DNA of 25,842 bases from IMG/VR virus record IMGVR_UViG_3300025154_000354, positions 1-25,842 of that record, one strand, 5' to 3'. The translations under genes and the position numbers were made by a program. Within the stretch, counting starts at the first letter, position 1; every line of letters begins with the position of its first letter. The notes beneath the pieces were generated by a model that saw only the letters and a list, made by a program, of their open reading frames with translations, was not told the origin of the DNA and did not search any database. Positions 332 through 25,842 of the stretch are shown piece by piece. The DNA comes from a virus.

Positions 332-1090
332 ATGAATCAATTAGACATATTCACCGGCAAGGACAAAACGGAATTGGCCATCGAGTTTATCCAAACCCAT
401 GAGCCGCCCGAGGGGTATTTTGTGGGCTTTTCAGGGGGCAAGGATTCCGTGGTGTTAATAGATTTAGTGAAACGGTCGAAGGTTAAATATGAAGCCTACT
501 ATTCCGCAACCGGGATTGACCCGCCGGAAGTGGTCAAGTTCATTCGGGACAACCACCCCGAAGTTATTTTCAAAAGACCGCCCGAGACCTTTTGGGCGTT
601 GTTACTCAAAAAACCCCCCCCCACCAAGTGGCGGCGTTGGTGCTGTGATAAACTAAAAAAAAGGCCGACATTGAGGGTGCCGCTAAAGCATAGGTTAATG
701 GGTATTCGTTCCGAGGAAAGTTTTAAGCGAGCGTCGCGGCCTATGATAGATTATTACAAAGGTGGACAAATATTATTTAAGCCTATTTTTACATGGAAAG
801 AATGGGAGATATGGGAATATATCGAAGATCGAAATTTGCCCTATTGCAGTCTTTATGATGAAGGGTTTAGCCGGATAGGCTGTGTAATCTGCCCGTTTCT
901 AAGTGGGCCTAATTTGGCAAAAACGATGCGCCATAAAAATAGGTGGCCCAAACAATATTTGATGTTCGAAAAAACCATGGCTAAACGGTTTAACCTTGGC
1001 CGCCCGGATGGTTCCCCGTGGGCGGAAAAAACCGCAGAGGAGTTTATTTTGAACTGGTATCTTGGGAAGGGGGTGAAACCAGACAAATAA
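332..1090 (+). CDS. PAPS reductase/DndC-like PP-loop protein
   Basis: This 252-residue protein belongs to the phosphoadenosine-phosphosulfate reductase/PP-loop ATPase superfamily. The PP-loop SGGKDS is at residues 34-39. A Cys pair in RRWCCDKLK (residues 101-109), the GIRSEES motif (124-130) and a CVICPF motif (184-189) resemble family members that carry an iron-sulfur cluster, such as DndC. The family activates a substrate with ATP and transfers sulfur or reduces a sulfonucleotide. In phages these proteins are often annotated as PAPS reductases, but their substrates are mostly unproven. The start is set by AGGAGGCGCT just upstream of ATG. No other dnd genes are visible, so DNA phosphorothioation cannot be claimed. 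It contains runs of nine C (614-622) and eight A (655-662) but remains in frame. Confidence 0.85.
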   Translation: MNQLDIFTGKDKTELAIEFIQTHEPPEGYFVGFSGGKDSVVLIDLVKRSKVKYEAYYSATGIDPPEVVKFIRDNHPEVIFKRPPETFWALLLKKPPPTKWRRWCCDKLKKRPTLRVPLKHRLMGIRSEESFKRASRPMIDYYKGGQILFKPIFTWKEWEIWEYIEDRNLPYCSLYDEGFSRIGCVICPFLSGPNLAKTMRHKNRWPKQYLMFEKTMAKRFNLGRPDGSPWAEKTAEEFILNWYLGKGVKPDK

Positions 1091-3810: not shown

Positions 3811-5448
3811 TTACGCTAAAAGTCTGCCGGTGAGGCCGCTCAAATTTAACACCCCGCCGCCGTCGCCGTTCCACGTGGTCGTGCCGGTTGCGGCAGAATA
3901 TTGCAGCCATGCGATATAATGTTTCCCGAGCCCAGGCTGACCAATGTAGTGCCCCTTCGTCTCCATCCGCCCGTTGGCTATGGCCGTCGTAAACCCGCCT
4001 ACAGTCCCAGAGAAGGCGTTCGTCGCGTCCAGCCCGACCCCCGCGATAACCCCCACGCCGGTATTGGTGTTTAGAGCTGTAGCGAAGGCATCCGCCTCAA
4101 CCGCATCTTCGTTCATTCCGCGAACAAAACTGAACTGGTAGTTCACCGACGCTTGCCATTGCCGAACCGTGGCCGTAGTGTAGGTGTGGGTGTCCGTGGT
4201 GTCCCAAATGAAAATATCGATTGGGACGCGGTTGAACATATTCCAGACGCCCCAGTAGCCAAACGCGGACGCCCCGCCCCTCGTTTGAGAAACCGTCGCC
4301 CCCGATGGGTTGGTGTTGATCGTTCCAACGTAAAGACCCTTGCCAGCCCCCGGGCCGTTGGTTATGTCGTATCGGTTGACCCACTGGCCTATGGAGTTGC
4401 GGATAAGCTCGGTTTTGCCTACCCCGGTTCCCCTGACCGTAAGGCTGTCCCAAAGAGGCCCGCGAGTGCATCTAAGCGTCCCCGCGTCTACCCAGGCGAA
4501 CATGTCATAGTTTTTATCGGCCGCACCCGCCGCCGGTGATTTGGTGTCGTCGGCTAACCCTTGCGCCATCCCCGAAATGGTGTAGTCGGTCAAGACCCCC
4601 GACCCGTTGTCGAGAATAATAGTGCTATGTAAATAGGGCACATAATATATATTATTGGCTGCCGCCGTATTGGCGGGCACTGGCTCGCCGGTGAGGTTGG
4701 TTAATCGTCCACCAGGAACGGGCGGGACGTGTGAAGCGAACTCAATATCTACCCGCGCCTTGGCCGCGGTAGCACTGGCGATAAGCGTATCAAGGAACGT
4801 TTCGCCGTCCGGAGCGTCCAAAAGAGTCAGTGCAAACGCTGATACGCCCAACCCGGCCAACGTGTCTCGGGCGGCATACCAGTTCGTCCCGTTCGAATAG
4901 GCCAGAATCGCGTCGTATTGAGCCGTGAGGGCCAACGTGGACGCGCCGTTGATGGTCTGCCCACTGGCGCACGCAATCGTAAACGTATTTGCGGGAGCTA
5001 TTTTTCCAACCTGAACGGTTCCGGAAACCAAGGCCGCATCGGGTAGAGTATATTGAACATTCCCGCTCGCCGTGTTACCCAACACAAGGCCGTCATCCAC
5101 GTTCCCGACCGTATCAGTGGCGATTGTGCGGGAATTGCCGTATACCGCCGTGCATTTGTAGGCCTCGATTTCAAGGGCGGAAACCTCAACCCCCTGATTC
5201 GGCGGGGCCGCATCCGGGTCTCCGATATAGAATCGCAACCGATAGATGCCATCCCCGAATACCTCGGCGCGGCCATTAGAATCGAGCGCCTTTTTCGTGA
5301 TCGCTACACTTTTGTCCCGGTCCTCATAGGCGGTTTTAGCGGTCGTGGTTCCAGGGACGCTGAACGTCACGTAACCGGTGGCAATCGGCGCGCCCGCGTT
5401 TTGAATACCGGCGAGAAGGACGGTAAAGTTATGGGCTTTTGTCGTCAA
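3811..5448 (-). CDS. Tail fibre/tail-associated protein (paralog of 12665-14125)
   Basis: 545 residues with a TTG start; GGAGG lies eight bases upstream within the end of the previous gene, and the preceding TAA abuts the TTG. The N-terminal ~95 residues (motifs GYVTFSVPGTTTAK and ALDSNGRAEVFGDG) look like a small beta domain and are nearly the same as the start of the protein encoded at 12665-14125. Similarity continues more weakly to about residue 240. The rest is unrelated to the paralog, rich in Gly, Thr and Asn, and beta-rich, as expected of a fibre shaft and receptor-binding end. Likely a virion adhesin that attaches through its conserved N-terminus. No chaperone or peptidase domain is evident. 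Confidence 0.7.
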   Translation of the reverse strand: MTTKAHNFTVLLAGIQNAGAPIATGYVTFSVPGTTTAKTAYEDRDKSVAITKKALDSNGRAEVFGDGIYRLRFYIGDPDAAPPNQGVEVSALEIEAYKCTAVYGNSRTIATDTVGNVDDGLVLGNTASGNVQYTLPDAALVSGTVQVGKIAPANTFTIACASGQTINGASTLALTAQYDAILAYSNGTNWYAARDTLAGLGVSAFALTLLDAPDGETFLDTLIASATAAKARVDIEFASHVPPVPGGRLTNLTGEPVPANTAAANNIYYVPYLHSTIILDNGSGVLTDYTISGMAQGLADDTKSPAAGAADKNYDMFAWVDAGTLRCTRGPLWDSLTVRGTGVGKTELIRNSIGQWVNRYDITNGPGAGKGLYVGTINTNPSGATVSQTRGGASAFGYWGVWNMFNRVPIDIFIWDTTDTHTYTTATVRQWQASVNYQFSFVRGMNEDAVEADAFATALNTNTGVGVIAGVGLDATNAFSGTVGGFTTAIANGRMETKGHYIGQPGLGKHYIAWLQYSAATGTTTWNGDGGGVLNLSGLTGRLLA

Positions 5449-11254: not shown

Positions 11255-12665
11255 AGGTAAACCGCTCCTCGGCCTTGATGAGCGCCGATTGCGTAGCGTC
11301 GGACATTACCAGTTCCCATTGACGGGAAAAGTAGCTGCCAAGCCGCCGCACCTGGACAGAAAGCTCGGTTTGACTGGTGGCCTCTATCGCCACTTCCTCA
11401 TAAGCGCCCCATTCGGCAACGCCGTTATCCCGCCATCGAATCAACATCTTTTTCGGCGTGGTGGCGGTGTCGGCCCGTTTGAAAACGAGGTTTAATTCAT
11501 GGCAGAATTTCCGAACGTCGGGCGATCCGCGGTCAACCGCGTCGGTCCTGATAACGGTTCGAATATCATCGCCGTTGTCAGTGGTGCCGGTGACTTCCCA
11601 AATGATCCCGGTCCTACGGTCTCCCACGAGCACCTTATTCCAGGCGGTAGCGTGGGCGACGTTCTGGCCGAGGTATTGCTCATGTTGGGCGGTATTGGGG
11701 TTGTAATAACTCCATTCATACCACTGGTTCAACAGGATGTCATAAACCAACGTCTTTTGGGCGACGGTGAACGTCCACACCGCGAAGTGTTTGTCCTGAA
11801 TCCGCAAATAGTCAGCCTTAGCATCAATCGTGGTGTCGAAACTCGCCACATACCGGGTCAAATTCGGGTTACTGATAATCTCCGGGGTGTAACCGCTCAT
11901 CCGCCGAAACTCGCCCGTTTCGTCTAACCAGTAGGCCGTGCCGTTGATGAAAATGAACGAGTCCGGCGCTTGCGTCCCGACCATGACCGCGCCCTGACCT
12001 TCACGAACGAACGTCTCGCCGTCATCGCGCCATAACTCAATCGTGTTCTGGCCCGGCAAGTAAATATAGTTGTTGGCGACATGAAGGCACTGAACCAGGT
12101 CCGGCTGCGCTTCGGCCTCGAAATACAGACCCGCCCATACCGCGGGTGTCGTAGCGTCCGCGTAGTCTACCCGGCTTGACGAAACGGTCAACCCCATCAG
12201 CACCTGGTTGAGCGTAGCGATAAACCTGACCGTCGTAGGAGCCTGAGCGTCCGCCAGATAGGCACCTGAGCCGCCCAAGGGGTAAGCCCCTATCCTACCC
12301 CCGGACGCCGCGTAAAGGTCCGTCCCGGCAACGTCGGCAAACGTGGGGCGGGTTTGGGCAACCATGCTTGCCGTGCCGGTCCGGTCGGTTGCTACTCCCG
12401 CGCTCGTGAGCCTGAACATTTTTGCATTACAGGCCGCGTAGAGGACCGAATTCCTAACCCAAAAGTGTTGCCCATCAACCGGGCCATTTTCGCCAAGGTT
12501 GCAAAATTGGCTTAACCCCGGCCGTTTCTGCCATATCAGCTTCGGGCCATCGGGCGAACCATACGGCGTCCAAAACCCGTCAATCTGGCCCTGATTAAAC
12601 GTGCTCGTAGTCGGCTTGTCCGCCGACAGGTCCAACGAGGCGAACGGTAGGGGTTGGGTTGGCAT
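11244..12665 (-). CDS. P22 gp10-like DNA-stabilisation/tail hub protein
   Basis: 473 residues, beta-rich throughout, with regularly spaced Trp/Tyr/Gly strands such as FWVRNSVLYAAC, NTIELWRDDGETF and GTAYWLDETGEFRRMSGY that suggest a beta-propeller. The C-terminal RRLGSYFSRQWELVMSD matches what I know of phage stabilisation proteins. In P22, gp10 binds beneath the gp4 adaptor, closes the packaged head and carries the tail needle. The adaptor candidate lies just beyond one fibre gene, close to the P22 order. ATG 12665 has GGAGGGGGCC upstream and overlaps the preceding stop (TAATG). Confidence 0.8.
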   Translation of the reverse strand: MPTQPLPFASLDLSADKPTTSTFNQGQIDGFWTPYGSPDGPKLIWQKRPGLSQFCNLGENGPVDGQHFWVRNSVLYAACNAKMFRLTSAGVATDRTGTASMVAQTRPTFADVAGTDLYAASGGRIGAYPLGGSGAYLADAQAPTTVRFIATLNQVLMGLTVSSSRVDYADATTPAVWAGLYFEAEAQPDLVQCLHVANNYIYLPGQNTIELWRDDGETFVREGQGAVMVGTQAPDSFIFINGTAYWLDETGEFRRMSGYTPEIISNPNLTRYVASFDTTIDAKADYLRIQDKHFAVWTFTVAQKTLVYDILLNQWYEWSYYNPNTAQHEQYLGQNVAHATAWNKVLVGDRRTGIIWEVTGTTDNGDDIRTVIRTDAVDRGSPDVRKFCHELNLVFKRADTATTPKKMLIRWRDNGVAEWGAYEEVAIEATSQTELSVQVRRLGSYFSRQWELVMSDATQSALIKAEERFTYGR

Positions 12666-14125
12666 TATTGGCCCCCTCCGGGAATGGTAAAATCGATTAT
12701 TTTCATGGTTGCATAAGCCGACGAAACCGACCCGCTATTCGAGTGGTAGTAATAGATATCTCCCGCGCCCGAAACATAATTTGTAACAAAATTAAAAGCC
12801 TTGCTGCTGGCTTGTGTCTCTATAACCTGCGACCATAGATTAAAGGTTGTTTGATCTAAACCAACATAGAGCGCCGATGATCCTTCGCCCCCTGCCGCAG
12901 AAGTAATCCAGTGTGTAGTTTGTATAGTTCGGCCTGTTGCGATGGGAGGTAATGCGGCCGAAACGTCTATTGTGGCCTTTGGCGAAGTTGCGGTAGATGC
13001 TCCATTAACTAAAATTTCGTCATAGGTTTCGTAACAAATTTTAAACCCTGATTGACGATAGGGCCTAAAGTCGCCCGTAACCGGAACGTTTTTAACCGCC
13101 GTAACCAACGTTTTGTAAGTATACCCAGCCGGAAGTGTCGGCGCGGTTGCGGACTCGGACAAAAGCCCTGCCGTGGTGGCCGTGGTCGGGTTATAGATGA
13201 CCCAACCATAATACCACATATCGTTATTTTCGGACCCGGTGTCCAACCCGTTAGCGCCGGACGCGGTAATGTCCACGGTTAGGTTGACGGTGGAAAGTAG
13301 AATTCCGTCTCCCGCCGCGTTTTTGACAAGCAACTCGTCAGCGTCGATGTCGATCTGGTAGGTCGGGTTTGTCGCATTGGTTCGGCAAGTCAGGTTGTAG
13401 GCCGTGCCCCCAACCATGGGAACCGCCATTTTACTTTTTGCCGTCGCCGTGGTTGAGCTTGCCAAAAGAGTATCCAAAAACGCCGCGCCGTCCTCGTCGT
13501 CAAGCATGGTCTGAACGAAATCGGAAATTCCCTCAATGGTGGCCACTGTCTCACGGGCCACATACCAGTTGACGCCCGAGGACCGAAAAACTCCCGCGCC
13601 GTCGGCGGACCCGAAAACGATTGAGGTAGCATTGTTGATCGTCTGGCCGTCGGGACTGGCCACGGTCGCCACGTTGGCCGTGGCAACCTTGATGCAGAGT
13701 ATCCCGTTGCCCGAAGTCAAGGCCGCGTCGGGGAGGGTGTAAACCACGTCACCGGCGGTCGTGTCCATCAGCACGAGCCAGTCGTCAACCGAGCCCTCGG
13801 TATCGGTAGCAATCGTCCGCACGTTGCCCTTGACGGCGACGCATTTATAGTTTTCGACTTCCAGGGCCGTGACTTCCACGCCGCCCGCGTCCGGATCGCC
13901 CACGTAGAACCTGAGCCGGTATTCGCCGTCGCCGAATACTTCCGCCCGGCCGTTACTGTCCAGTGCCTTCTTGGTTATGGCGACGGCTTTGTCCTTGTCC
14001 TCCCAAGCGTTCTTAGCCGTGGTCGTGCCGGGGATGGAGAACGTCACATAGCCCGTCGCAAGCGGGGAGCCCGCGTTTTGGACGCCCACGAGGAGATTGA
14101 CGAAGTTGTCGGCGCGGGTTGCCAT
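12665..14125 (-). CDS. Tail fibre/tail-associated protein (paralog of 3811-5448)
   Basis: 486 residues. The N-terminal ~95 residues (GYVTFSIPGTTTAK, AITKKALDSNGRAEVFGDG, RLRFYVGDPDA) are almost the same as those of the protein at 3811-5448, with weaker similarity to about residue 240, including IATDT, YTLPDAAL and NWYxAR. After that the two differ completely. The C-terminal part is Thr/Ser/Gly-rich and beta-rich, ending in FTIPGGGQ. It probably provides a second adhesin or an adaptor for fibres. Unlike its paralog it starts with ATG (AAGGTG upstream). It lies between the adaptor and gp10-like genes, an insertion relative to P22 order. Confidence 0.7.
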   Translation of the reverse strand: MATRADNFVNLLVGVQNAGSPLATGYVTFSIPGTTTAKNAWEDKDKAVAITKKALDSNGRAEVFGDGEYRLRFYVGDPDAGGVEVTALEVENYKCVAVKGNVRTIATDTEGSVDDWLVLMDTTAGDVVYTLPDAALTSGNGILCIKVATANVATVASPDGQTINNATSIVFGSADGAGVFRSSGVNWYVARETVATIEGISDFVQTMLDDEDGAAFLDTLLASSTTATAKSKMAVPMVGGTAYNLTCRTNATNPTYQIDIDADELLVKNAAGDGILLSTVNLTVDITASGANGLDTGSENNDMWYYGWVIYNPTTATTAGLLSESATAPTLPAGYTYKTLVTAVKNVPVTGDFRPYRQSGFKICYETYDEILVNGASTATSPKATIDVSAALPPIATGRTIQTTHWITSAAGGEGSSALYVGLDQTTFNLWSQVIETQASSKAFNFVTNYVSGAGDIYYYHSNSGSVSSAYATMKIIDFTIPGGGQ

Positions 14126-14829: not shown

Positions 14830-15333
14830 TTAAGGGACCAAATAAAGCACCACGAGCGTCAATGTGCCCGTGCCTGTAGTGTCGGCGGCGACGTTGACCG
14901 TCCCCACGAAAGTGGTTTCCTTGGTGAACTGAAAAGGACCGACGGCCATTAACTGGCCCTGGGCCGGGCGGAATATCCCCGTGATAATAAGCCCGGTGAT
15001 GCCCGTTCCAACCAACACACCCATGTCACCCAATCCCGTAGCGTTCGCGGCGTCGTAAGTGCCGCTTCCGCCGTTGGCCAACCATCCGAAGTCTATATTT
15101 AGCGCTTCGGACCCGGTATCCGCGTCGATGGTGTCTCCATAGACCCATCCGCCCACAATTACCGCTCTTGCGGGGACCTTGCAGAACTCAATCACGTCTC
15201 CGGCTTCGAGTAAGTTCCCCGCGGCTATTTCGACCGTGCCGTAGGCCGCGCAAAGCACACCCCCGCCCTCTGGGGGCTGAAACACCGGGAACCCATCGGC
15301 CGCCCTTGTTGCGACAATTACCTCGGCTGCCAT
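14830..15333 (-). CDS. Beta-rich virion protein, tandem paralog A
   Basis: 167 residues, about 40% identical by eye to the product of 15344-15841 immediately upstream. Shared blocks are AEVI..TRAA.GFPVFQ at the N-terminus, GNLLEA.D.I.FCKVPA, GGW.YGD.ID and NGG.GT.DA. The proteins are Gly/Thr/Ala-rich and beta-rich, with no signal peptide. Location between the capsid gene and neck genes suggests head decoration or a head fibre, but I do not recognise the family. ATG has AAGGGGGG upstream. Compared with its partner it has two short insertions, near the N-terminus (PPEGG) and in the DADTGSEA loop. Confidence 0.6.
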   Translation of the reverse strand: MAAEVIVATRAADGFPVFQPPEGGGVLCAAYGTVEIAAGNLLEAGDVIEFCKVPARAVIVGGWVYGDTIDADTGSEALNIDFGWLANGGSGTYDAANATGLGDMGVLVGTGITGLIITGIFRPAQGQLMAVGPFQFTKETTFVGTVNVAADTTGTGTLTLVVLYLVP

Positions 15334-15343
15334 GGTGCCCCCC

Positions 15344-15841
15344 TTAATCCACGAGGTAGAAAACTACCATGGACAGAGTTCCGACCGCGCCGCCGGCCGC
15401 CGCCGTATTGACGATAGCCGTGATGGTGGTTTCCCTGGTGAATGTTATCGGGCCATCCGCCAGAAGCAGGCCTTGAAGCGGATAGATAATCCCGGCAACA
15501 GGTTTTAAGTCTGTGATAGCGTCGCCGGTGATTGTTCCGAGGTTTCCGAAGCCGTCGGTGTCCACAGCATCCCACGTTCCCGTTCCGCCGTTGGCCGCCC
15601 AACCAATGTCAATGTCGAGCGTTTCCGTTCCGGTGTCGATGTCGTCGCCGTAAATCCAACCGCCGATAATCGTCGCACCGGCCGGAACTTTACAGAACTT
15701 GATGATGTCGTTGGCTTCGAGTAAGTTCCCCGAAGCAATTTCCGTCACCCCGTAGGCGGCCTGAACCACTCCGGAGCCTATCCCCTGGAAAACGGGGAAT
15801 CCGGCGGCTGCCCTTGTGGTGATGATAACTTCCGCAGTCAT
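15344..15841 (-). CDS. Beta-rich virion protein, tandem paralog B
   Basis: 165 residues, the upstream member of a tandem pair; only ten bases separate it from its paralog. AAGGGGGG precedes the ATG. Both members share the core GNLLEANDIIKFCKVPAGATIIGGWIYGD-like region, one conserved Cys within FCKVPA and a C-terminal strand ending in V.YLV. Both reading frames are intact and both have strong ribosome-binding sites, so both are probably made. The pair could form a mixed oligomer, or the copies could have diverged for different sites on the capsid. Confidence 0.6.
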   Translation of the reverse strand: MTAEVIITTRAAAGFPVFQGIGSGVVQAAYGVTEIASGNLLEANDIIKFCKVPAGATIIGGWIYGDDIDTGTETLDIDIGWAANGGTGTWDAVDTDGFGNLGTITGDAITDLKPVAGIIYPLQGLLLADGPITFTRETTITAIVNTAAAGGAVGTLSMVVFYLVD

Positions 15842-17722: not shown

Positions 17723-18601
17723 TCATCGGCCAAGCACCTTCCCGATAGATTGAGGCCCCGCCCACTTCGGCCCGGAGTTCGAACCAACTGCGGGTAAGTC
17801 CGTCAAGCTGCCCGGTAGGCGCCTGGCAATTTCAGCGTTGATTTTTGCCTGGTTTTCCGCTTCCACCTCGGCCCGGATTTGAGCGCGGAGTGCATCCATG
17901 TCCTGACCTTGCGGCTGTCCGTTCTGCTGCTGGTATTGCCGCATGAAATTTTCGGCCGTTCGATAGGCGAACTCGGCCGGGTCGGCGGCTTGCATACCCT
18001 GATCCCGCAAAACTGGATAGTTTGCGACGAGGGAGCGAAAAACGTTTATTTTATCGTCAAAGTCCTGATACCTGGACCGGGCGGCGGATTCCGCGAGGTT
18101 CAGGAACCGGTTGGTGGCTTCGGCTTGAACGGCTTGGACTCGTTGATCCACGACCGCAAGCGGGTTATTCCAAAACTCGACTTCCGGGTCTACCGGAGGC
18201 ACAGCCGGTTGCGGCTGTTGGACCGGTGGACGCTGTTGCATTTGGGCCACAAACGCCCGCAATTGGTCGCGCTCGGCTTCGACCGTTTGACGCTTGCGCC
18301 TTTCATCCTCGGCGACGGACTGGAATGCCCTTACTTTTCTGGTCGGTTCGTCATCCACAACGGTCTCGGCCCCGGCGGCGGGAGAATCGCCCGGTTCAGC
18401 GGCGGCCTGTGCGCCCGGTTCGACCGTTTGGACCGTAGCCGTAGTTACCGGCTCAACCTGGCCCGTGAAGCGCCCTTGGGCGTCCCTGGCCGGTTCAGCG
18501 GCGGTTTCGGCGGCGGTTGGTTCCCCGGACGGCTCGACCTGGTTATCAGGCGATTCCTCCGGCGTGTGCGTCGATCCAAAAATCTCGTCTAGGTCGGCCA
18601 T
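17723..18601 (-). CDS. Capsid scaffolding protein
   Basis: 292 residues, acidic and low complexity. The first ~90 residues are Pro/Glu/Thr/Ala-rich and likely disordered. A charged coiled-coil stretch follows (about 90-125, VAEDERRKRQTVEAERDQL), then a Pro/Gln linker and a helical C-terminal part. This, and its place between portal and coat genes, is typical of assembly scaffolds that guide shell formation and then leave. The C-terminal tail (GPQSIGKVLGR) is basic, as expected for a coat-binding end. AGGAGAC precedes the ATG. There is no protease motif, so it is not a fused protease-scaffold. Confidence 0.8.
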   Translation of the reverse strand: MADLDEIFGSTHTPEESPDNQVEPSGEPTAAETAAEPARDAQGRFTGQVEPVTTATVQTVEPGAQAAAEPGDSPAAGAETVVDDEPTRKVRAFQSVAEDERRKRQTVEAERDQLRAFVAQMQQRPPVQQPQPAVPPVDPEVEFWNNPLAVVDQRVQAVQAEATNRFLNLAESAARSRYQDFDDKINVFRSLVANYPVLRDQGMQAADPAEFAYRTAENFMRQYQQQNGQPQGQDMDALRAQIRAEVEAENQAKINAEIARRLPGSLTDLPAVGSNSGPKWAGPQSIGKVLGR

Positions 18602-18612
18602 GTCTGTCTCCT

Positions 18613-20487
18613 CTACTGCGCCCGTGACGGCGGCGGCCCAAAATTTCGCCCGTTACCCGGCGGCGGTGTATTTTTCGCAATTAGCTGCAAGGGCAACATT
18701 TGCGTTTCAACCTGCGTTTTGATCGTATCGGCTTGGGTCTTTTTAGTCTGAGCCTGTTTGCCTGTAACATCAGCCTCTTTATCGGCCATTTCCAATTCGG
18801 CCGCGTGCTGGGCAACCTGCGCCTGTTGCGCCTGCTGTTCCTCGTTGCCCTTCATGCGTTCGAGTATTTTGTCTTTATTCCGTAGGCTGGAAGCCTCAAT
18901 CAACAGAGCCGGAGGTATCAACCCGGGGCCGACGCCCGAGAATTTGACCAGAGCGTCAAATTGTTCCTGTTGCAACGTCACCACGTCTGGCGCCTCGTCG
19001 AGCACCAAGTCAATGTCGAGTTCCGATACGTTATTCTCGTAGCTGACGACCTGTTGAAGCCGTGGGTCCATCTGAATCATTTCGGGCGTAACCGTCAGTC
19101 CCTCTTTCGCGAGTTGTTCGCCCAAAGTCACCGGAATATTGAGGCCAACAAACCTGATTTTGTTGGTGTCATCAGTCACCCGAATCCACTTTTCCTCTTT
19201 CCAGAATTGCCGGACACGGTTCCAAATGGCCCGGTAAACCCGTTTCTGCCAGACCCTGAGCGATTTATACGGCGGCCCTATTTCGAGGGTCGAGTTTTGC
19301 GATAGCTGTTGCAACGCCCGACCGGACAGGTCTCTTGTCTCCGAACCGGTCAACGCGGCGTTCGCCCCCTGCGCGTCCATTTCGGCCTTGGCCTCTTGGA
19401 GCAAATTCAACTGCCCCGTGGCCATGTCGCCGGTTGGGAGTATCCCGAAATGTTTGCCGTATTCGAAATCGTTGCTATTTATTTCGAGGTGGCCGTCGGG
19501 TTTAGCCAATTCCGACCTGGCCCTCACTTTGTCCTCAACCGCCCCTTTGACGCCAAAAGTTTGACGCACTGAAATAAGGTGCAACGCCTTCGACCGGCGC
19601 TTGTTTATTTCGTCTTGTAGATCGAGCAATCTGGTAACGGGGCCGTATCGATTGCCTTCGCGGTCGATATAGGCGGATTGAAATATCAGGCTCGGTTCCG
19701 GTTCGCCCTCGTCGTTCAGGTAGGGCGAAACGCCCGGACCCTGAACCGGGCCGGACTGCGTAAACTGGCAGTAATGCCACACGCCTCGGTCGCGGTAGCA
19801 CATATGGACAATACGGATTCGTTCGCGGGCGGAATCAAACCAAATCTGTTGGGGCTTGTCGTCGTAAGTCGTGCCCGCCGTCGAAATCGGCGCGGTTTCT
19901 TTGGTATCTACAAGCGCCTGCAGTCCCTCCGGGAACGCGGCCAGAGCGTCCTCGTAGTCCATCCACTGAACCACGCCCAAATACCGGGCGTCACTGAAAT
20001 CCTTTTCCCGCGAATGGGGGTCCCAAAACAGCCGGTCCCAGAAAATCCGCTTGACCTGAATTTCCAGCTCGCCCTTTTTGTTCGGCCGGACATAGACCTC
20101 GACGCCGCCGGTTCCTTCAATCTCCATACAGGTAAAAACGTCCGAACGAGTCTCGTCGAAGCCCACGTTGTCGCAGACGTATCGCAAAGCGTCCGTGGCC
20201 GCATCCGCGCCTTCCTCGTGCGCCGGTGTGCGCGGGTAGGCCTTAGGATCGGTTTTACTGCGGTCCTCCATGGTAATGAGCGCATCGACTTTGGGAGCAA
20301 TGCGGTTTAGCGTCAAGCAGGGCTGTTTCCGATCCTCCAAAACCTTGCGCTCCGCTGGCGTCCACTGTTTGTTGTCGTAGTAGTCCCGGCACAACTCGGA
20401 CCTGGCCCGGCTGTCCTGGCTCACGTCCTCGGCCGATTCGAACCACTTGACCAGTCGGTCGTGAGTGACGGTCAGGCCGTTTTCCAT
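18613..20487 (-). CDS. Portal protein (P22-like)
   Basis: 624 residues from ATG 20487 (GAGGGGGCGTC upstream); an in-frame ATG 36 bases further up has no better site. The N-terminus (ESAEDVSQDSRARSELCRDYYDNKQWT) and core (QPCLTLNRIAPKVDALITME) are characteristic of P22-type portal proteins, and DRLFWDPHSREKDFSDARY also fits. Twelve copies would form the ring through which DNA is packaged and ejected. The C-terminus (from about 560) is a Gln/Ala/Lys-rich helical region like the barrel of P22 portals. It overlaps the large terminase gene by 16 bases, suggesting coupled translation of the packaging motor and its dock. Confidence 0.9.
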   Translation of the reverse strand: MENGLTVTHDRLVKWFESAEDVSQDSRARSELCRDYYDNKQWTPAERKVLEDRKQPCLTLNRIAPKVDALITMEDRSKTDPKAYPRTPAHEEGADAATDALRYVCDNVGFDETRSDVFTCMEIEGTGGVEVYVRPNKKGELEIQVKRIFWDRLFWDPHSREKDFSDARYLGVVQWMDYEDALAAFPEGLQALVDTKETAPISTAGTTYDDKPQQIWFDSARERIRIVHMCYRDRGVWHYCQFTQSGPVQGPGVSPYLNDEGEPEPSLIFQSAYIDREGNRYGPVTRLLDLQDEINKRRSKALHLISVRQTFGVKGAVEDKVRARSELAKPDGHLEINSNDFEYGKHFGILPTGDMATGQLNLLQEAKAEMDAQGANAALTGSETRDLSGRALQQLSQNSTLEIGPPYKSLRVWQKRVYRAIWNRVRQFWKEEKWIRVTDDTNKIRFVGLNIPVTLGEQLAKEGLTVTPEMIQMDPRLQQVVSYENNVSELDIDLVLDEAPDVVTLQQEQFDALVKFSGVGPGLIPPALLIEASSLRNKDKILERMKGNEEQQAQQAQVAQHAAELEMADKEADVTGKQAQTKKTQADTIKTQVETQMLPLQLIAKNTPPPGNGRNFGPPPSRAQ

Positions 20488-21776
20488 GACGCCCCCTCGG
20501 TATCCGCAAAAGCCGAATCCCAAGCGCTTTTAGGCTTGGGGTGGTTGGGAAGTTCAATCGCAAGGCCCAGCTGCTGGAAGGCGTCGGCGGCATGACACGC
20601 CCAATCGTCGTTAGGCTCTTTTTTGTATTGCCCGGTTTCCTGGTCTTTTTCATACCGGTAATGCCGAAGCGCCTGTAGCCCGTCCGCGCATCGACCCTCA
20701 TCGAACCAACAGAGCGAAAAAACCGCCCGCGCCGCCTGAATGCCCTGCTTTTTGTATTGGACGCGGGGAATGACCGTTACCCGACCGAGTTTGCCCGCCT
20801 CTACCTGCATCTTGATTGTGCGTCCGCCGGCCGACAGTTGCCGATGATGGGCGTCGTGGGGCAGGAAGTGTGTCCCGTAGAGATAACCGCGCTCTTGAAG
20901 GGTTTTGAGGTAATGCGGAATATCCTTGAACTGATTTTGATAGTAATCGATGATTCGAAACTCCATCCCGACCGGCTGCGCGAACCAAATAGTCGTCAGG
21001 TCGGCATGGCCCAAATCCCAAAACGTATTGACCGGCACGCCACGCTCAATCGGGACGCGAGTAATTCGACCTTCCGCGTCAGCCGCCCGCAGTTCGGAGG
21101 CGAATATAGCGCCCTCCAAAATTTGACGACAACGGCCTTCCCAGACGTTCAGGTAGGCGTCCGGGTCCTTCGTGGCCAAATACAACCGCTCCTGGTTCAG
21201 CACCTCCGGGAACCAAGGATTGTCCCGCCAGTTAATTTCAATCACGATACTGTCAGGCGGAGGATTGACCACGAACCGTTGATACGTTTCATCGGTCGTC
21301 AGCATCGGGTTGAAGCTTACCCAAATCTCCGAGCCGTCTTTACGAATGGTCGGGATGAGCGTCTCCCAAGACGACCGGGAAACGACCTGAGCCTCTTCTA
21401 CCCAGGCATAATCGACGCCTTCGTAGGATTTCAGGTTGTCGCCGTTGTGCCGGAGGCCTTCAAAAAAGAATTGCGTTCCTTCGGCAGTTGTGCCTATCCG
21501 ACCGAGTATGGTGGTCTTTTGCACCTCGTAGAACGATTCAAGCCCGAGCGTTTTTATCTGATTTTTCAGTAAACGATATACCGAAGCCTCGATGGATTTT
21601 TGAATCTCCCTGCAGCACAAAACGAGAATGGGGCGTTGAGCGCCCATGATTAGAAACGCCCTGGCGATACCCCACGACTTCGCCCCGCCGCGCCCGCCGT
21701 AGAGGATTTTATACCGAGACGGCTCGAATATCGGTTCGAGCTTCTCGGGAAAGTCGGTAAAAGTGGGCTCGCTCAA
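20472..21776 (-). CDS. terL: Terminase large subunit (ATPase and nuclease)
   Basis: 434 residues. The N-terminal ATPase has Walker A GGRGGAKS (27-34), Walker B VDYAWVEEA (121-129) with catalytic Glu, and a coupling motif SFNP (154-157). The RNase H-fold nuclease has acidic residues in WDLG (Asp254), LPHD (Asp308) and HAADAF (Asp398). It belongs to the PBSX/phage terminase-3 type. It cuts concatemeric DNA and pumps it through the portal. The start is TTG 21776, whose TTGA overlaps the previous stop; GGAGGATT lies about ten bases upstream. The N-terminal EKLEPIFEPSRYKILYGG is complete for the family, so the TTG start is sound. Confidence 0.95.
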   Translation of the reverse strand: MSEPTFTDFPEKLEPIFEPSRYKILYGGRGGAKSWGIARAFLIMGAQRPILVLCCREIQKSIEASVYRLLKNQIKTLGLESFYEVQKTTILGRIGTTAEGTQFFFEGLRHNGDNLKSYEGVDYAWVEEAQVVSRSSWETLIPTIRKDGSEIWVSFNPMLTTDETYQRFVVNPPPDSIVIEINWRDNPWFPEVLNQERLYLATKDPDAYLNVWEGRCRQILEGAIFASELRAADAEGRITRVPIERGVPVNTFWDLGHADLTTIWFAQPVGMEFRIIDYYQNQFKDIPHYLKTLQERGYLYGTHFLPHDAHHRQLSAGGRTIKMQVEAGKLGRVTVIPRVQYKKQGIQAARAVFSLCWFDEGRCADGLQALRHYRYEKDQETGQYKKEPNDDWACHAADAFQQLGLAIELPNHPKPKSAWDSAFADTEGASWKTA

Positions 21777-22114
21777 AGCGGATAATCCTCCGACCGACTC
21801 GTAAATTCGTTGTTATCCGTCACCGCCAATTCGATTATCCGTTCGTCGGTCAACCCCGCCGCCGTCACAATTTTATTGACTACGGTATAAACGCCCACGT
21901 CAGCCATCAGCGTGGCCGTGGTGACGTTTGCCGAAATAGCCTGCCCCGATATAGTCACCCCGGACTGTTCGGCCGTCCAAGTCGATGTTGAGATGGTATC
22001 CGAGCCCAAAAGAGCCGCCCAATTAATCGTATAGGATAGGACGGCGTTTTCAGTTTGCCTAAAATGTCGCCGTTTGTGTTGGACGGCGTTAAAAGTGCGG
22101 TCGAAACGATGCAT
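21773..22114 (-). CDS. Ig-like beta domain virion protein
   Basis: 113 residues. After a basic N-terminus (QHKRRHFRQTENAVLSY), YTINWAALLGSDTISTSTW (28-46) and the following strands (GVTISGQAISANVTTATLMADVGVYTVVNKIVTAAG) match a small Ig-like beta domain found in phage proteins sometimes called fibre-tail adaptors. The ribosome-binding site is weak, so translation may depend on the gene upstream, whose stop is three bases before the ATG. It ends overlapping the large terminase TTG. Its position between the terminase genes is unusual for a structural protein. Confidence 0.6.
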   Translation of the reverse strand: MHRFDRTFNAVQHKRRHFRQTENAVLSYTINWAALLGSDTISTSTWTAEQSGVTISGQAISANVTTATLMADVGVYTVVNKIVTAAGLTDERIIELAVTDNNEFTSRSEDYPL

Positions 22115-22117
22115 TTG

Positions 22118-22456
22118 CTAAAACTTCTGCGGGTAGAGCGTTACGACCACGGAGCTACCGGCTGTATACGTGCCCTCACTGAAATCGAGAAACGGCAGTA
22201 TTTCGGCTTCGGGAAAATATTTGATCCGTTGATCCGTGTTGTCGGCGCATAGGGCGTAAAACAACTGAGACCCGGATGCACTGCCATCGAGAACTTTGCA
22301 CTTGTCGGCCGCCGCCGCCGGGTTAAACTGGATTGAATGGACCCGCGTCCCGCCCAAGTGCCGCTTACTCAGCGTGTCGGTAATCAGCCAATCCGAGTCA
22401 ATCGCCGATATGGTAATTACCGTTTGGCTGGCATTCATTACAACCGTGTTCGCCAT
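22118..22456 (-). CDS. Beta-rich hypothetical virion protein
   Basis: 112 residues, predicted mainly beta strand (TVVMNASQTVITISAIDSDW; SSVVVTLYPQKF at the end), with Cys at two places (residues 53 and 70). GGAGGC precedes ATG 22456. It belongs to a run of four small or fibre-like genes inserted between the small and large terminase genes. No family recognised. A minor structural role is likely but inferred only from neighbours. Confidence 0.55.
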   Translation of the reverse strand: MANTVVMNASQTVITISAIDSDWLITDTLSKRHLGGTRVHSIQFNPAAAADKCKVLDGSASGSQLFYALCADNTDQRIKYFPEAEILPFLDFSEGTYTAGSSVVVTLYPQKF

Positions 22457-22457
22457 T

Positions 22458-22664
22458 TTAAAGCCTCCACCAGTAAACGAGGCATAAAGCCCCGATCATT
22501 GCTACCAGTATCGCCGCGCACTTCGCGCCCAGGGTTAGCGGTTCAGTCACTTCCTTGGGCCAATTCCGCCAACTGCGGCGGTCGGATATGTCAAGCAGGT
22601 CTTGCTCTCGCCACTCGCGGGCGGTAAGGTCAATGCCTGTGCCTTTCAGCCGCTTCGGAGTCAT
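22458..22664 (-). CDS. Small C-terminal membrane-anchored protein
   Basis: 68 residues from ATG 22664, whose ATGA overlaps the stop of the fibre-like gene. A longer in-frame ORF exists, but its N-terminal part would overlap that gene for nearly 300 bases and is not plausible. The first 45 residues are charged (TAREWREQDLLDISDRRSWRNW). Residues 48-66 form one membrane helix (GAKCAAILVAMIGALCLVYWW). Possible tail-anchored inner membrane protein. Function unknown; the position among virion genes is unexpected for a membrane protein. Confidence 0.55.
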   Translation of the reverse strand: MTPKRLKGTGIDLTAREWREQDLLDISDRRSWRNWPKEVTEPLTLGAKCAAILVAMIGALCLVYWWRL

Positions 22665-23680
22665 CCCAGCAACATCGCCATGGCCAGTTGAGCCGATGCG
22701 TTCAGTTCCGCCCTTGCCCACATTGCCGCGCCGCCAAGCCAGGCCGGGCCGATAGTGTTGTTGTAGAAAGCCCGCAAAGTACCGGCCGACACGAAAAACC
22801 CCCTGAAATTGGACTCGCCGCCGAAGGTGAACGGGTCCGTCAAGTTGGTTGTAACGCCGACCTTGAATTTCTTCTGCCCGCCGACGGTGTAGCCCGAGAC
22901 CACAGCGCAATAGAGCGGGACGTTGGCAGCAAAATCGAAAACTTTGTTTGACCATGACGTTCCGTCAGTTGAGCTTAAATACCCATGTATTGTGCCGGGG
23001 GTGGGCACGTCGTAAGCGGACCAACTGAGCAGCCCCACACCTGCGGTTGGACCAAGAATCGGGTAGGCCGTCACACTGTTGTGTACGGTGTGGGAAAAAC
23101 CAAACGTGACCTTGACCACCAACGTCATCTGCCCGGCCAGCGCCGCCTCGACCGCCGCAGAGGTCGGCCAGGTCAGCACGTCCAGGGCGCGAGAGCCCTC
23201 GACCGGCGAGGTGCGGACCAGCCGCTTTTCAACCTGGCAGAACGTCACCACCCCGGCAATCGTCACATCCACCGTGCCCGCGCCGGTTACAACAAACGTC
23301 CGCGGGGTAGCCGCAACGGCCGCGCCGCCCCCGGTAATCGTGGCCGTTGCGGCCGCGACGGTCGCGCTCCCGGCCCCGAAAACCGAGCAGGTATAGGTGC
23401 CGGTCGTGGCCAAATTGATCGTCTGAGTCGCGGGAACTAAGGGCGTCACAAATAGGTTGGTAGTCGCCGGCTCGCCCAAGAACCCGTCCGCCTCGATCCG
23501 CGGCCCGTTGATCGGGTATTCGGTCGAAGGGTCAAAAAATGCGCGAGCCGTCGAGGCGCGGGTGAATGCGGAGGGCGACGAGTATGCTTGCAGGTTCGGT
23601 TCGACCCGCCAAACCAAATCGGCCGGACCGCGGCCCATGCGCATCCGTTGCCCCATTTTTAGGCCGTTGTAGCCGTTCAT
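22661..23680 (-). CDS. Tail/fibre-type protein with FTRASTA N-terminal motif
   Basis: 339 residues. The N-terminal segment has FTRASTA (39-45) followed by EADGFLGEPATTNLF (63-77). I know this pairing (FTRAST..., then GxLxEPxxTNL) from phage tail and fibre proteins, where a lectin-like (concanavalin A-type) sandwich often follows; the beta-rich C-terminal region here (about 180-339) would suit it. The middle (95-150) is Ala/Thr/Gly-rich. It could be a receptor-binding or decoration protein. ATG 23680 overlaps the small terminase stop (ATGA). It is placed first after the small terminase, which is uncommon. Confidence 0.65.
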   Translation of the reverse strand: MNGYNGLKMGQRMRMGRGPADLVWRVEPNLQAYSSPSAFTRASTARAFFDPSTEYPINGPRIEADGFLGEPATTNLFVTPLVPATQTINLATTGTYTCSVFGAGSATVAAATATITGGGAAVAATPRTFVVTGAGTVDVTIAGVVTFCQVEKRLVRTSPVEGSRALDVLTWPTSAAVEAALAGQMTLVVKVTFGFSHTVHNSVTAYPILGPTAGVGLLSWSAYDVPTPGTIHGYLSSTDGTSWSNKVFDFAANVPLYCAVVSGYTVGGQKKFKVGVTTNLTDPFTFGGESNFRGFFVSAGTLRAFYNNTIGPAWLGGAAMWARAELNASAQLAMAMLLG

Positions 23681-24105
23681 TTGCCACCCGCCTTGACGAA
23701 CCGCACGGTAAGCGCAATCGGCCCGCCATCGGGGTTGGAAAGTGTGTGCTCTTGTTTTTCCCGCCAGTTTTCAGGCTTGCGGTTTTTCAACCAAAAAATG
23801 CAGGCGGTAACGTCGCCAGACATGGCTTTCCCGTAGAGACTTTGGGCTACGGCGGTGTCCGCAACTTCGCGCCCTTCTTTTACGGACCTTGAAAAACTGG
23901 GGATGTTTCGAATCCAGTATTCTATGGATGATACGGAAACTTCAAACAATTCGGCGAGTTTATCGTTGGTTGCGCCCAAAAGACAGAACCCTTTGGCTTG
24001 ATCGTCGTATTCGGCCTTGTAATCAGTGGGGCGACCACGACCGCGTGCGGATTTTTGATCGGCTTTGGGCTTGGCTTTTTTTGGGGTTTTTTTGGAGGTG
24101 GTCAT
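23677..24105 (-). CDS. terS: Terminase small subunit
   Basis: 142 residues. A very basic, Lys-rich tail (1-26) is followed by GRPTDYKAEYDDQA, then a helix-turn-helix (about 43-66, GATNDKLAELFEVSVSSIEYWI) and an ACIFWLKNRKPENWREK motif (101-117) found in many phage small terminases. It recognises the packaging site and loads the large subunit. It is the first gene after the strong promoter at 24141-24169, with GAGGGGCGAC upstream of the ATG. It is separated from the large terminase by four genes, about 1.9 kb. If a pac site lies within or near this gene, as in P22, I cannot pick it out by eye. Confidence 0.85.
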   Translation of the reverse strand: MTTSKKTPKKAKPKADQKSARGRGRPTDYKAEYDDQAKGFCLLGATNDKLAELFEVSVSSIEYWIRNIPSFSRSVKEGREVADTAVAQSLYGKAMSGDVTACIFWLKNRKPENWREKQEHTLSNPDGGPIALTVRFVKAGGK

Positions 24106-24140
24106 GTCGCCCCTCGGGTTGAGGTGAACCGTTGGAGCGA

Positions 24141-24169
24141 AGTGTAGAGGATTCTATACAGTCTGTCAA
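24141..24169 (-). promoter_or_regulatory. Strong sigma70-type promoter for the late series
   Basis: On the minus strand TTGACA (24164-24169) is followed after exactly 17 bases by TACACT (24141-24146). The start of transcription should be near 24134, giving a leader of about 28 bases before the small terminase ATG. It is the clearest promoter in front of the packaging, head, tail and lysis genes, which run with almost no gaps to 1629. Confidence 0.75.
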
Positions 24170-24171
24170 GT

Positions 24172-24194
24172 AAAAAGTGTTACCTTTGGTTACA
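24172..24194 (-). terminator. Possible terminator of the small-gene cluster
   Basis: Seven-base arms (24178-24184 and 24188-24194, one mismatch) around a three-base loop are followed on the minus strand by five T (24172-24176). It overlaps the stop codon of the lipoprotein gene and lies directly before the late promoter, insulating the two units. The stem is short and AT-rich, so efficiency may be low. Confidence 0.45.
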
Positions 24195-24516
24195 GGTCTT
24201 TCAAATTAAAAATATACGCACTATCCCCGGCAATCCGGGCGATGGTGGATTTGACGTTGGCGACGCCGTATCCGGACTCGTCAACAGGGTAAATGTCGAT
24301 GGTGACGCCTGGCTCACAGGCCCCCCGGGGGCCGTTGGGAAAGCACTGATCCTCGACCACGATAGGCGGGGGCGGCTGGACGGTTTCGACGCGGCCGTCG
24401 TAGGTGCAACCGGAGAGCAATGCTACGAGGATCAATCCGCCGGCGAATGCGTGCCACACAATTAGCATGATCCGTTCACGACAAGTAAGCCAATGCCAAA
24501 ACGGTTTTCTGTTCAT
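24190..24516 (-). CDS. Small lipoprotein of unknown role
   Basis: 108 residues. After a 16-residue polar/aromatic lead, a hydrophobic helix ends in the lipobox LSGC (Cys37), so the mature protein (about 72 residues) should be lipid-anchored. An internal ATG at residue 17 would give a more standard signal length; the first ATG has GAGGA directly before it and overlaps the upstream stop (ATGA), so either start is possible. The mature part has a Pro-rich segment and two further Cys (58 and 66) that may form a disulfide. Not recognised. It lies outside the lysis cassette, so a spanin role is less likely; envelope modification is possible. Confidence 0.6.
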   Translation of the reverse strand: MNRKPFWHWLTCRERIMLIVWHAFAGGLILVALLSGCTYDGRVETVQPPPPIVVEDQCFPNGPRGACEPGVTIDIYPVDESGYGVANVKSTIARIAGDSAYIFNLKDL

Positions 24517-24742
24517 TCCTCTTTCCCTTCCTTCCGCTTCTGGTAAATGACTCTCGGTATCACAACCGCATCTGGTCCATATTTTTCCAGCAGTTCTTTG
24601 ATTGTGTAGCCATAGGTGACAGGGGATTCGTCGATGGGTTCGCCAACTGATTTAAACCCCTCTTGCGCCCAGTCATGTATAGTGGCGCGGTCGAGGTCTT
24701 GAAGTGTTGGCCGTTTTCTGGTCATTCCTCTTCCCCTTCCTT
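24504..24742. repeat. 30-bp direct repeat at two successive gene junctions
   Basis: Positions 24504-24533 and 24713-24742 match at 28 of 30 bases. Each copy covers the end of one small gene, the ribosome-binding site and the start of the next gene (MNRKP and MTRKR). The copies are 209 bases apart and could recombine to delete one gene. Confidence 0.85.
24513..24725 (-). CDS. 70-residue hypothetical protein
   Basis: Starts at ATG 24725 (GGAAGGGGAAGAGGA upstream), which overlaps the stop of the gene before it, and ends overlapping the lipoprotein ATG. The product is soluble and charged, with helices around ATIHDWAQEGF and TIKELLEKYG, and ends in a Lys/Glu-rich tail (KRKEGKEE). No family recognised. 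The longer in-frame ORF reaching to 25037 overlaps the neighbouring gene in another frame and is rejected as the true start. Confidence 0.6.
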   Translation of the reverse strand: MTRKRPTLQDLDRATIHDWAQEGFKSVGEPIDESPVTYGYTIKELLEKYGPDAVVIPRVIYQKRKEGKEE

Positions 24743-24907
24743 TTTCTCGATCTCGTAAATTAGCATCGGCTCGCCCTTGCGGCCGGTGTGCGGCGTGATA
24801 TAGACTACCTGACCCGGTCGTGTATTGACGATCATTTCCCCGCACCTTGCCAACCCGGTTCGTTTCCGCCGAATCCATTTGGTTATGAAAGAAGTCCATT
24901 TTTTCAT
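24722..24907 (-). CDS. 61-residue basic/acidic hypothetical protein
   Basis: From ATG 24907 (GGAG eight bases upstream) the product begins with a very basic helix (MKKWTSFITKWIRRKRTG), has a beta-rich middle (PGQVVYITPHTGRKGEPMLIYEI) and ends in an acidic tail (EKKEGEEE). A second in-frame ATG at 24973 with AAGGAG upstream would add 22 residues; see the zinc-ribbon frame that shares this stretch. Its tail and that of the next gene are alike (KEGEEE and KEGKEE), because the junction DNA is repeated. Function unknown. Confidence 0.55.
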   Translation of the reverse strand: MKKWTSFITKWIRRKRTGLARCGEMIVNTRPGQVVYITPHTGRKGEPMLIYEIEKKEGEEE

Positions 24908-24969
24908 TTCGGCGCTCCGCAATTCTGGCAACGTGGACCGTTGCCGGGTTTGAGGTTGCAGTAGTCTGG
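24904..24969 (-). pseudogene. Possible frameshifted zinc-ribbon micro-ORF
   Basis: This frame reads PDYCNLKPGNGPRCQNCGAPK and then TGA, with Cys in the pattern C-x9-C-x2-C and a typical CxxCGAPK ending. Its TGA overlaps the ATG of the next gene as ATGA, the junction style used across this cluster. It has no start of its own: a TGA directly precedes it. The ATG at 24973, with AAGGAG upstream, is out of frame by one base. It may be a frameshifted gene, a sequence error or chance. Confidence 0.35.
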
Positions 24970-24973
24970 TCAT

Positions 24974-25284
24974 TGTCGGCACTCCTTTTCGATTCTGGCC
25001 CGTGGGCGGAATTACCCATTAAGGCCGGTTGTAGCAAGCATGGTCGGTTAAACCACCTAATATCAATATTCGCCCCCCCCGCCCCCTTCCGGGGGAGCGA
25101 TCATGCGTCAAAGCCCGCATGACCGACGTACTCGTGAATTTTAATTTGAATTTTGAAGAGGTTTGAAAGCGAATATGGAAAGTCGAGGAACCTTCGGGAA
25201 CCCAGGCGCAATGCGGCCCAGGGCGAATCGTGGTGTATTTGGGACAGCGAAGAAGTTATCAACCCCCGAAGGGGTCTTGGCCGC
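24974..25284. other. Gene-poor stretch, probably leader or regulatory DNA
   Basis: No convincing gene is seen on either strand. The region holds an eight-C run (25073-25080), a GC hairpin-like block (25081-25096), an inverted repeat TCATGCG/CGCATGA with an eight-base gap (25101-25107 and 25116-25122), a strongly AT-rich block (25136-25158) and a direct repeat ggaacc (near 25190). It probably carries a leader and perhaps a promoter for the small-gene cluster, but I could not find a convincing -35/-10 pair. Confidence 0.5.
25262..25275 (-). terminator. Weak terminator-like hairpin after the basic protein gene
   Basis: ACCCC and GGGGT pair around a four-base loop (TTCG on the minus strand, an especially stable tetraloop) ten bases after the stop codon of the basic protein. 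A true T-run is lacking (TGATAACTTCTT follows), so it may only slow or process the transcript. Confidence 0.35.
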
Positions 25285-25671
25285 TTATTGCGCGAATTCG
25301 TCAGCCGCTCGCGTTGCTCCCTTGCTGACACTTACCTTTTGCCCATTACTCCGGCGCTTAACCACCAGGGCCGGACGATTGGTCCCCCGGTTCGAGGGGC
25401 GATGGCTTTTATTCTTCTTCTGCTGTTGTTTCGGCGTATACGGGACAGAAAACTGCGTGCGCTCGCGGCATTTTTTGAGGTTGCCGCCTCGCGCCAAAAA
25501 CTCTTCTACCGTTTCGGCCGGCGGTAATTCCGGCTCACGGTTTAATTTAGCGTCTTGCTCAATGTAGTCCAACCGCTCAAAAACGTCTCCGTCGGCGCGG
25601 CCCGCGAATTTAGCGTATTTGTTGGCTTTGCCGGTTTGGGGAAGCGTGTTGACGGAATTACTTTTCAGCAT
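25285..25671 (-). CDS. Basic hypothetical protein, possible regulator, likely leaderless mRNA
   Basis: 128 residues from ATG 25671. An upstream in-frame ATG (25734) would place the promoter inside the gene and is rejected. The N-terminal half is mixed and helical, with VEEFLARGG (55-63) followed by LKKC. The C-terminal half (from about 78) is very basic and likely disordered (KQQQKKNKSHRPSNRG), suited to nucleic acid binding. No named domain recognised. The promoter's -10 box lies only six bases before the ATG, so transcription should begin at or next to the A of the start codon with no ribosome-binding site, as with the lambda cI mRNA from PRM. Its isolated promoter beside a divergent regulatory region suggests a regulatory or early role. 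Confidence 0.6.
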   Translation of the reverse strand: MLKSNSVNTLPQTGKANKYAKFAGRADGDVFERLDYIEQDAKLNREPELPPAETVEEFLARGGNLKKCRERTQFSVPYTPKQQQKKNKSHRPSNRGTNRPALVVKRRSNGQKVSVSKGATRAADEFAQ

Positions 25672-25677
25672 GGTCGA

Positions 25678-25706
25678 ATTATACGCGCCGTAACCGCGCC
25701 GGTCAA
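25678..25706 (-). promoter_or_regulatory. Sigma70-type promoter overlapping a start region (leaderless)
   Basis: On the minus strand TTGACC (25701-25706) is followed after 17 bases by a perfect TATAAT (25678-25683). The expected start of transcription is about 25671, which is the first base of the ATG of the basic protein gene. No Shine-Dalgarno sequence precedes that ATG. Confidence 0.8.
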
Positions 25707-25716
25707 TAAAATAGGG

Positions 25717-25752
25717 ATATGCTAATTTTAACACAATATGCTTTTTTTAACA
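25717..25752. repeat. Two 17-bp direct repeats upstream of the promoter
   Basis: ATATGCTAATTTTAACA (25717-25733) and ATATGCTTTTTTTAACA (25736-25752) agree at 15 of 17 bases and start 19 bases apart, close to two helical turns. They lie about 46-81 bases upstream of the predicted leftward start. They are candidate operators or UP-element-like sites. An inverted pair AATATG/CATATT (25735-25740 and 25751-25756) overlaps the second copy. Confidence 0.7.
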
Positions 25753-25764
25753 TATTCCTTTTGT

Positions 25765-25808
25765 CGTTCGCATGCGAATGAGTTTTCCGGGCTTGCCGGA
25801 TAACTCAT
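25765..25808. promoter_or_regulatory. Palindrome and stem-loop in the divergent control region
   Basis: TTCGCATGCGAA (25767-25778) is a perfect 12-bp palindrome. Next to it, ATGAGTTTTCCGG (25778-25790) pairs with 25796-25808 over twelve positions, one mismatch aside, around a five-base loop. Both could be operators for a repressor of the rightward genes that begin beyond the window. A consensus -35 box TTGACA follows at 25834-25839 on the plus strand. Confidence 0.5.
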
Positions 25809-25842
25809 TCCGTTGACGCCGCCGATATGATAGTTGACAGCA

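Follow-up and report, generated by a model that had tools for sequence, protein, structure and literature searches.

Genes and features at the locus

The window, which is the whole stretch of DNA that was analyzed (25,842 nt), is virus record IMGVR_UViG_3300025154_000354. A large minus-strand block of genes within it encodes the small and large terminase, a P22-type portal (phrog_156) and a major head protein (phrog_334), and the first gene on this late strand encodes a small basic protein. A second viral contig (IMGVR_UViG_3300025009_001388, hereafter L002) overlaps the window at positions 18154-25842 and extends 5.8 kb past its right end. Searches of IMG/VR and genome contigs with the repeats and promoter core returned no other relatives of the locus, and the region is absent from related spring-water phages whose TerL is ~53% identical. 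The features considered here are listed below by window position.

25261-25275, minus strand: GC hairpin with a TTCG loop and a weak T tail, a possible terminator by RNA fold, directly after the P0001 stop codon
25285-25671, minus strand: gene P0001, 128-aa basic protein of no family, predicted leaderless, ATG at +1
25671-25669, minus strand: ATG, its A the seventh base past the -10
25672-25677, minus strand: discriminator TCGACC, between the -10 and the ATG, identical in L002
25678-25683, minus strand: -10 TATAAT, unchanged in L002
25685-25716, minus strand: variable block, the spacer plus three changed bases upstream of the -35, sole internal difference from L002
25701-25706, minus strand: -35 TTGACC, unchanged in L002
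25717-25733, no strand assigned: repeat 1, ATATGCTAATTTTAACA on the plus strand, -46 to -62 relative to +1
25736-25752, no strand assigned: repeat 2, ATATGCTTTTTTTAACA on the plus strand, -65 to -81 relative to +1
25767-25778, no strand assigned: 12-bp perfect palindrome TTCGCATGCGAA, read directly, overlapping the inverted repeat
25776-25810, no strand assigned: inverted repeat of 15 bp around a 5-base loop, situated between the two divergent promoters (DNA fold z = -4.05)
25834-25839, plus strand: TTGACA, the -35 of the early, divergent promoter, whose -10 falls outside the window and is seen in L002

In L002 the divergent early promoter is complete (TTGACA-18-TATTAT), with the -10 and an HTH_17 gene at L002 positions 5808-5568. 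This first early gene has a strong ribosome-binding site and encodes a 62-aa HTH_17/excisionase-type protein (profile matches at E 2e-10 in Pfam and 4e-10 to TIGR01764). It is followed by small genes, a Cro/CI-type HTH protein, tRNA-Gln and an Erf recombination protein. The tRNA (anticodon ttg, L002 2972-3046, minus strand) lies inside the operon and was the sole match of the Rfam search. Given this divergent operon, the locus separates the early transcript from the late-strand one, and the best reading is of a P22-like phage. The palindrome and inverted repeat, which fall outside both predicted transcripts, are likely a protein site or a cruciform.

Several other features of the window were recorded. 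A PAPS reductase-family gene, auxiliary metabolic in kind, lies at the left end on the strand opposite to the late genes (332-1090, plus strand). Two pairs of late genes are apparently paralogous, one with a long N-terminal region in common (3811-5448 and 12665-14125, both minus strand) and one at 14830-15333 and 15344-15841. The small terminase gene has a good second promoter, TTGACA-17-TACACT, directly upstream (24169-24141, minus strand).

Predicted leaderless promoter and its basic product

An earlier note on this DNA had claimed a near-consensus promoter, TTGACC-17-TATAAT, with the transcription start on the A of an ATG, and both statements held when all elements were located on the minus strand. 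This is the best promoter in the whole window and the only one scoring at least 11/12; a shuffled window contained on average 0.09 promoters of this score, or 0.02 when +1 was also required to fall on a start codon. The order TATAAT-TCGACC-ATG puts the predicted +1 on the A of the start codon. No Shine-Dalgarno site precedes the ATG in either the window or L002, while such sites are present for most checked phage genes with well-placed starts.

A competing start is a GTG at 25734, from which an open frame runs into the gene in the window, and which would make the promoter fortuitous. In L002, however, the variable block is one base longer, so that the GTG is shifted out of frame and stops intervene, while both the ATG and the protein stay exactly the same. 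The broken upstream frame supports the ATG as the true start, and given that the GTG also sits within the repeats, upstream of the promoter, translation from it is extremely unlikely. With neither a Shine-Dalgarno site nor a usable upstream start, and with +1 on the A of the ATG, the gene has the sequence properties of a leaderless sigma-70 phage gene. At the level of sequence, a leaderless start of the basic-protein gene is well supported, and the 5' end of the mRNA is predicted at the AUG.

Leaderless translation starting at a 5'-terminal AUG is documented for natural mRNAs, lambda cI included (PMC4965119). As for cI from PRM, the predicted mRNA starts at AUG within a phage control region between divergent transcripts. 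Unlike that case, the product is no recognizable repressor, the promoter is near consensus, and operator-like repeats lie upstream of one promoter only. The '-10 next to ORF' leaderless promoters of Deinococcus-Thermus, in which the -10 sets +1 at the start codon (PMC12340547), share the -10 position that makes +1 the start codon but differ in that a full -35 is present here and in that this is a phage locus.

The product had been described as unrecognized and strongly basic, and this was borne out by a pI of 10.1 and the lack of any match in Pfam, PHROG, NCBIfam and PDB. The charge is unevenly distributed, with an acidic N-terminal half (pI 5.0) and a very basic C-terminal half (pI 11.6), a split that would suit a nucleic-acid-binding protein. 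No relatives were found in phages (tblastn), viral contigs, genome contigs or the loci around 80 TerL relatives. One viral contig (L003) was considered as a relative and rejected, since the match covers 18 residues only. A single-sequence structure model was of low confidence, mostly unstructured and uninformative (pLDDT 58). No HTH DNA-binding domain of the lambda cI repressor type was recognized in the protein by profile, PDB or this low-confidence model.

Direct repeats upstream of the -35

Two 17-bp direct repeats had also been claimed upstream of the -35, and they match at 15/17 positions as described; the "19 bases apart" given for them is the distance from start to start, and the gap is 2 bp. 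Ten bases separate the nearer repeat from the -35. A 15/17 pair was obtained in 1/300 shuffles of the 171-bp intergenic stretch and in 0/1000 when only the 54 AT-rich bp ahead of the -35 were shuffled; this tract is 22% GC in a genome of 57% GC. The individual repeats show weak dyad symmetry (shuffle fractions 0.04-0.07). The arrangement resembles an operator array, with similar sites in two copies near divergent promoters, and no convincing further copies were found in the window or L002. Elsewhere, the repeats are carried by one near-identical contig only, L002, in IMG/VR and by none of the genome contigs. Given that the surrounding kilobases are identical as well, the presence of the same repeats and promoter core in L002 is no sign of constraint. 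A resemblance of the TGTTAAA ends of the repeats to Xer/dif-type sites was dropped as too generic.

In an UP element, the alpha subunit of RNA polymerase contacts AT-rich DNA upstream of the -35. The 54-bp tract holds A/T runs where such elements lie, and the repeats could accordingly be an UP element of a strong constitutive promoter. This is unlikely, though worth keeping in view: the similarity of the repeats extends beyond the A/T runs into their TGTTA...GCATAT flanks, the shuffles of the same AT-rich tract never reproduced them, and they reach -81, beyond the usual UP element. The layout of direct repeats beside an inverted repeat is also attP-like and the adjacent gene is excisionase-type, as would be expected if these were the arm and core sites of a phage attachment site for integrase and excisionase. 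However, no integrase was seen in the 5.8 kb upstream in L002, a view that covers the early region in part, and excisionase-type HTH proteins are frequently plain regulators. We regard an attachment site as very unlikely.

As candidate regulator sites, the repeats may be compared with those of BldC, a MerR-like single-domain wHTH protein that binds direct repeats (PMC5859096). In both cases a small single-domain HTH protein accompanies direct repeats in AT-rich DNA. The BldC repeats, in contrast, are 9-bp sites spaced by roughly one helical turn instead of 19 bp, and regulator binding at the present repeats is putative.

Promoter spacer variation and proposed working of the region

The window and L002 are identical over 7,523 bases (18162-25684) and again over 126 bases (25717-25842). 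Their 12 difference columns all fall in the 32-bp variable block, the most unusual feature of the locus; apart from the ragged L002 end, the remaining 7,649 aligned bases contain none. Two more differences occur in the terminal 16 bases of L002, where by appearance there is a fold-back artefact; this contig end (L002 13483-13498) is a fold-back of nearby sequence. Within the block, three bases ahead of the -35 are changed (CC to TT, T to C), as is most of the spacer, while the -35, -10, discriminator, ATG and repeats are the same in both contigs. An unchanged -35 inside the block would be expected by chance with a probability of ~0.08. The -35 and -10 are separated by 17 bp in the window and by 18 bp with a TGn before the -10 in L002, so that both versions of the promoter look active. 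Both spacers carry a short direct repeat, GGCGCG twice in one and CATGG twice in the other (shuffle fractions 0.011 and 0.031), which is a post hoc observation. Copying of the block from elsewhere in the genome was considered and rejected, given that only chance 11-12-mers were matched.

The promoter may thus be a fast-changing control site. Since L002 was the only other relative of the locus found, hypervariability rests on two contigs, and their source samples may be related. One explanation would be a clonal population in which a cassette for regulator binding, lodged between the -35 and -10, is quickly swapped or diversified, such that regulatory specificity changes while promoter strength is held constant; we offer this tentatively and consider it rather improbable.

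The block could alternatively be without regulatory meaning, reflecting either CRISPR-spacer escape or a short stretch acquired from a related phage by recombination. Its 32 bp are about the length of a CRISPR spacer, its many clustered substitutions are like those of a recombined tract, and the spacer of sigma-70 promoters is tolerant of sequence change. Against this, CRISPR escape needs just one or two changes, no related donor sequence was found for a recombination, and the rest of the 7.5 kb is without signs of either process. Such an origin is possible, if on the doubtful side.

It is more improbable still that the difference reflects assembly of a mixed population and not two clean genomes. 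From the first differing base to the end of the window there are exactly 126 bases, as we infer would result from a branch in a de Bruijn graph with k = 127, and the fold-back at the far end of L002 is an artefact. Nevertheless, both versions are complete promoters, which is atypical of misassembly, and a graph branch itself implies coexisting real variants. If such a branch did end the window, the variants coexisted in the sample.

Two known regulator contacts between the -35 and -10 offer the nearest parallels. In lambdoid late promoters the Q-binding element sits there and, in phage 21, comprises a pair of 6-bp direct repeats (PMC6606751); the AlpA site is likewise located between the -35 and -10 (PMC7969949). 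The present promoter is like lambdoid PR' in that a core promoter with variable sequence between its -35 and -10 heads P22-like late-strand genes, and in its short spacer direct repeats. It is unlike PR' in that no Q gene is recognized, the gene is predicted to start at +1 without a leader, and a weak terminator follows the gene. No Q gene adjoins the promoter, and no Q, AlpA or other antiterminator was recognized among the scanned genes of the window and L002, in which the early region lies partly outside view. Given that no Q gene was recognized and that binding is here a prediction, the Q, AlpA and BldC parallels are to be taken as models of working and not of membership.

Judged from sequence, the locus would be the control region at which early and late-strand transcription diverge in a P22-like phage, comprising a strong leaderless promoter, upstream regulator sites and a spacer that serves as a second regulator contact; we assign this reading a probability of roughly 45%. 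The strong sigma-70 promoter would make an mRNA starting at the AUG of the basic-protein gene, which would be translated without a Shine-Dalgarno site. The repeats at -46 to -81 would most likely be regulator sites, and the regulator is probably a small HTH protein of the phage itself, encoded in the divergent operon, either the HTH_17 excisionase-type or the Cro/CI-type protein. Bound to the repeats, it could act as an activator or as a roadblock or repressor. The spacer, which is wholly different in character between the two genomes, would most likely be a second regulator contact whose sequence was exchanged. The earlier note had further suggested a switch between early and late programs. 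The context is consistent with such a role, given the divergent early operon beyond the repeats; a regulator role for the basic protein drew no support from family, fold or relative.

Leaderless phage genes and operators are of already-known kinds. What would be new, if true, is a promoter spacer swapped wholesale between otherwise identical phages. Spacer swapping, if it occurs, would mean very fast turnover of regulatory specificity, of the immunity or antitermination type.
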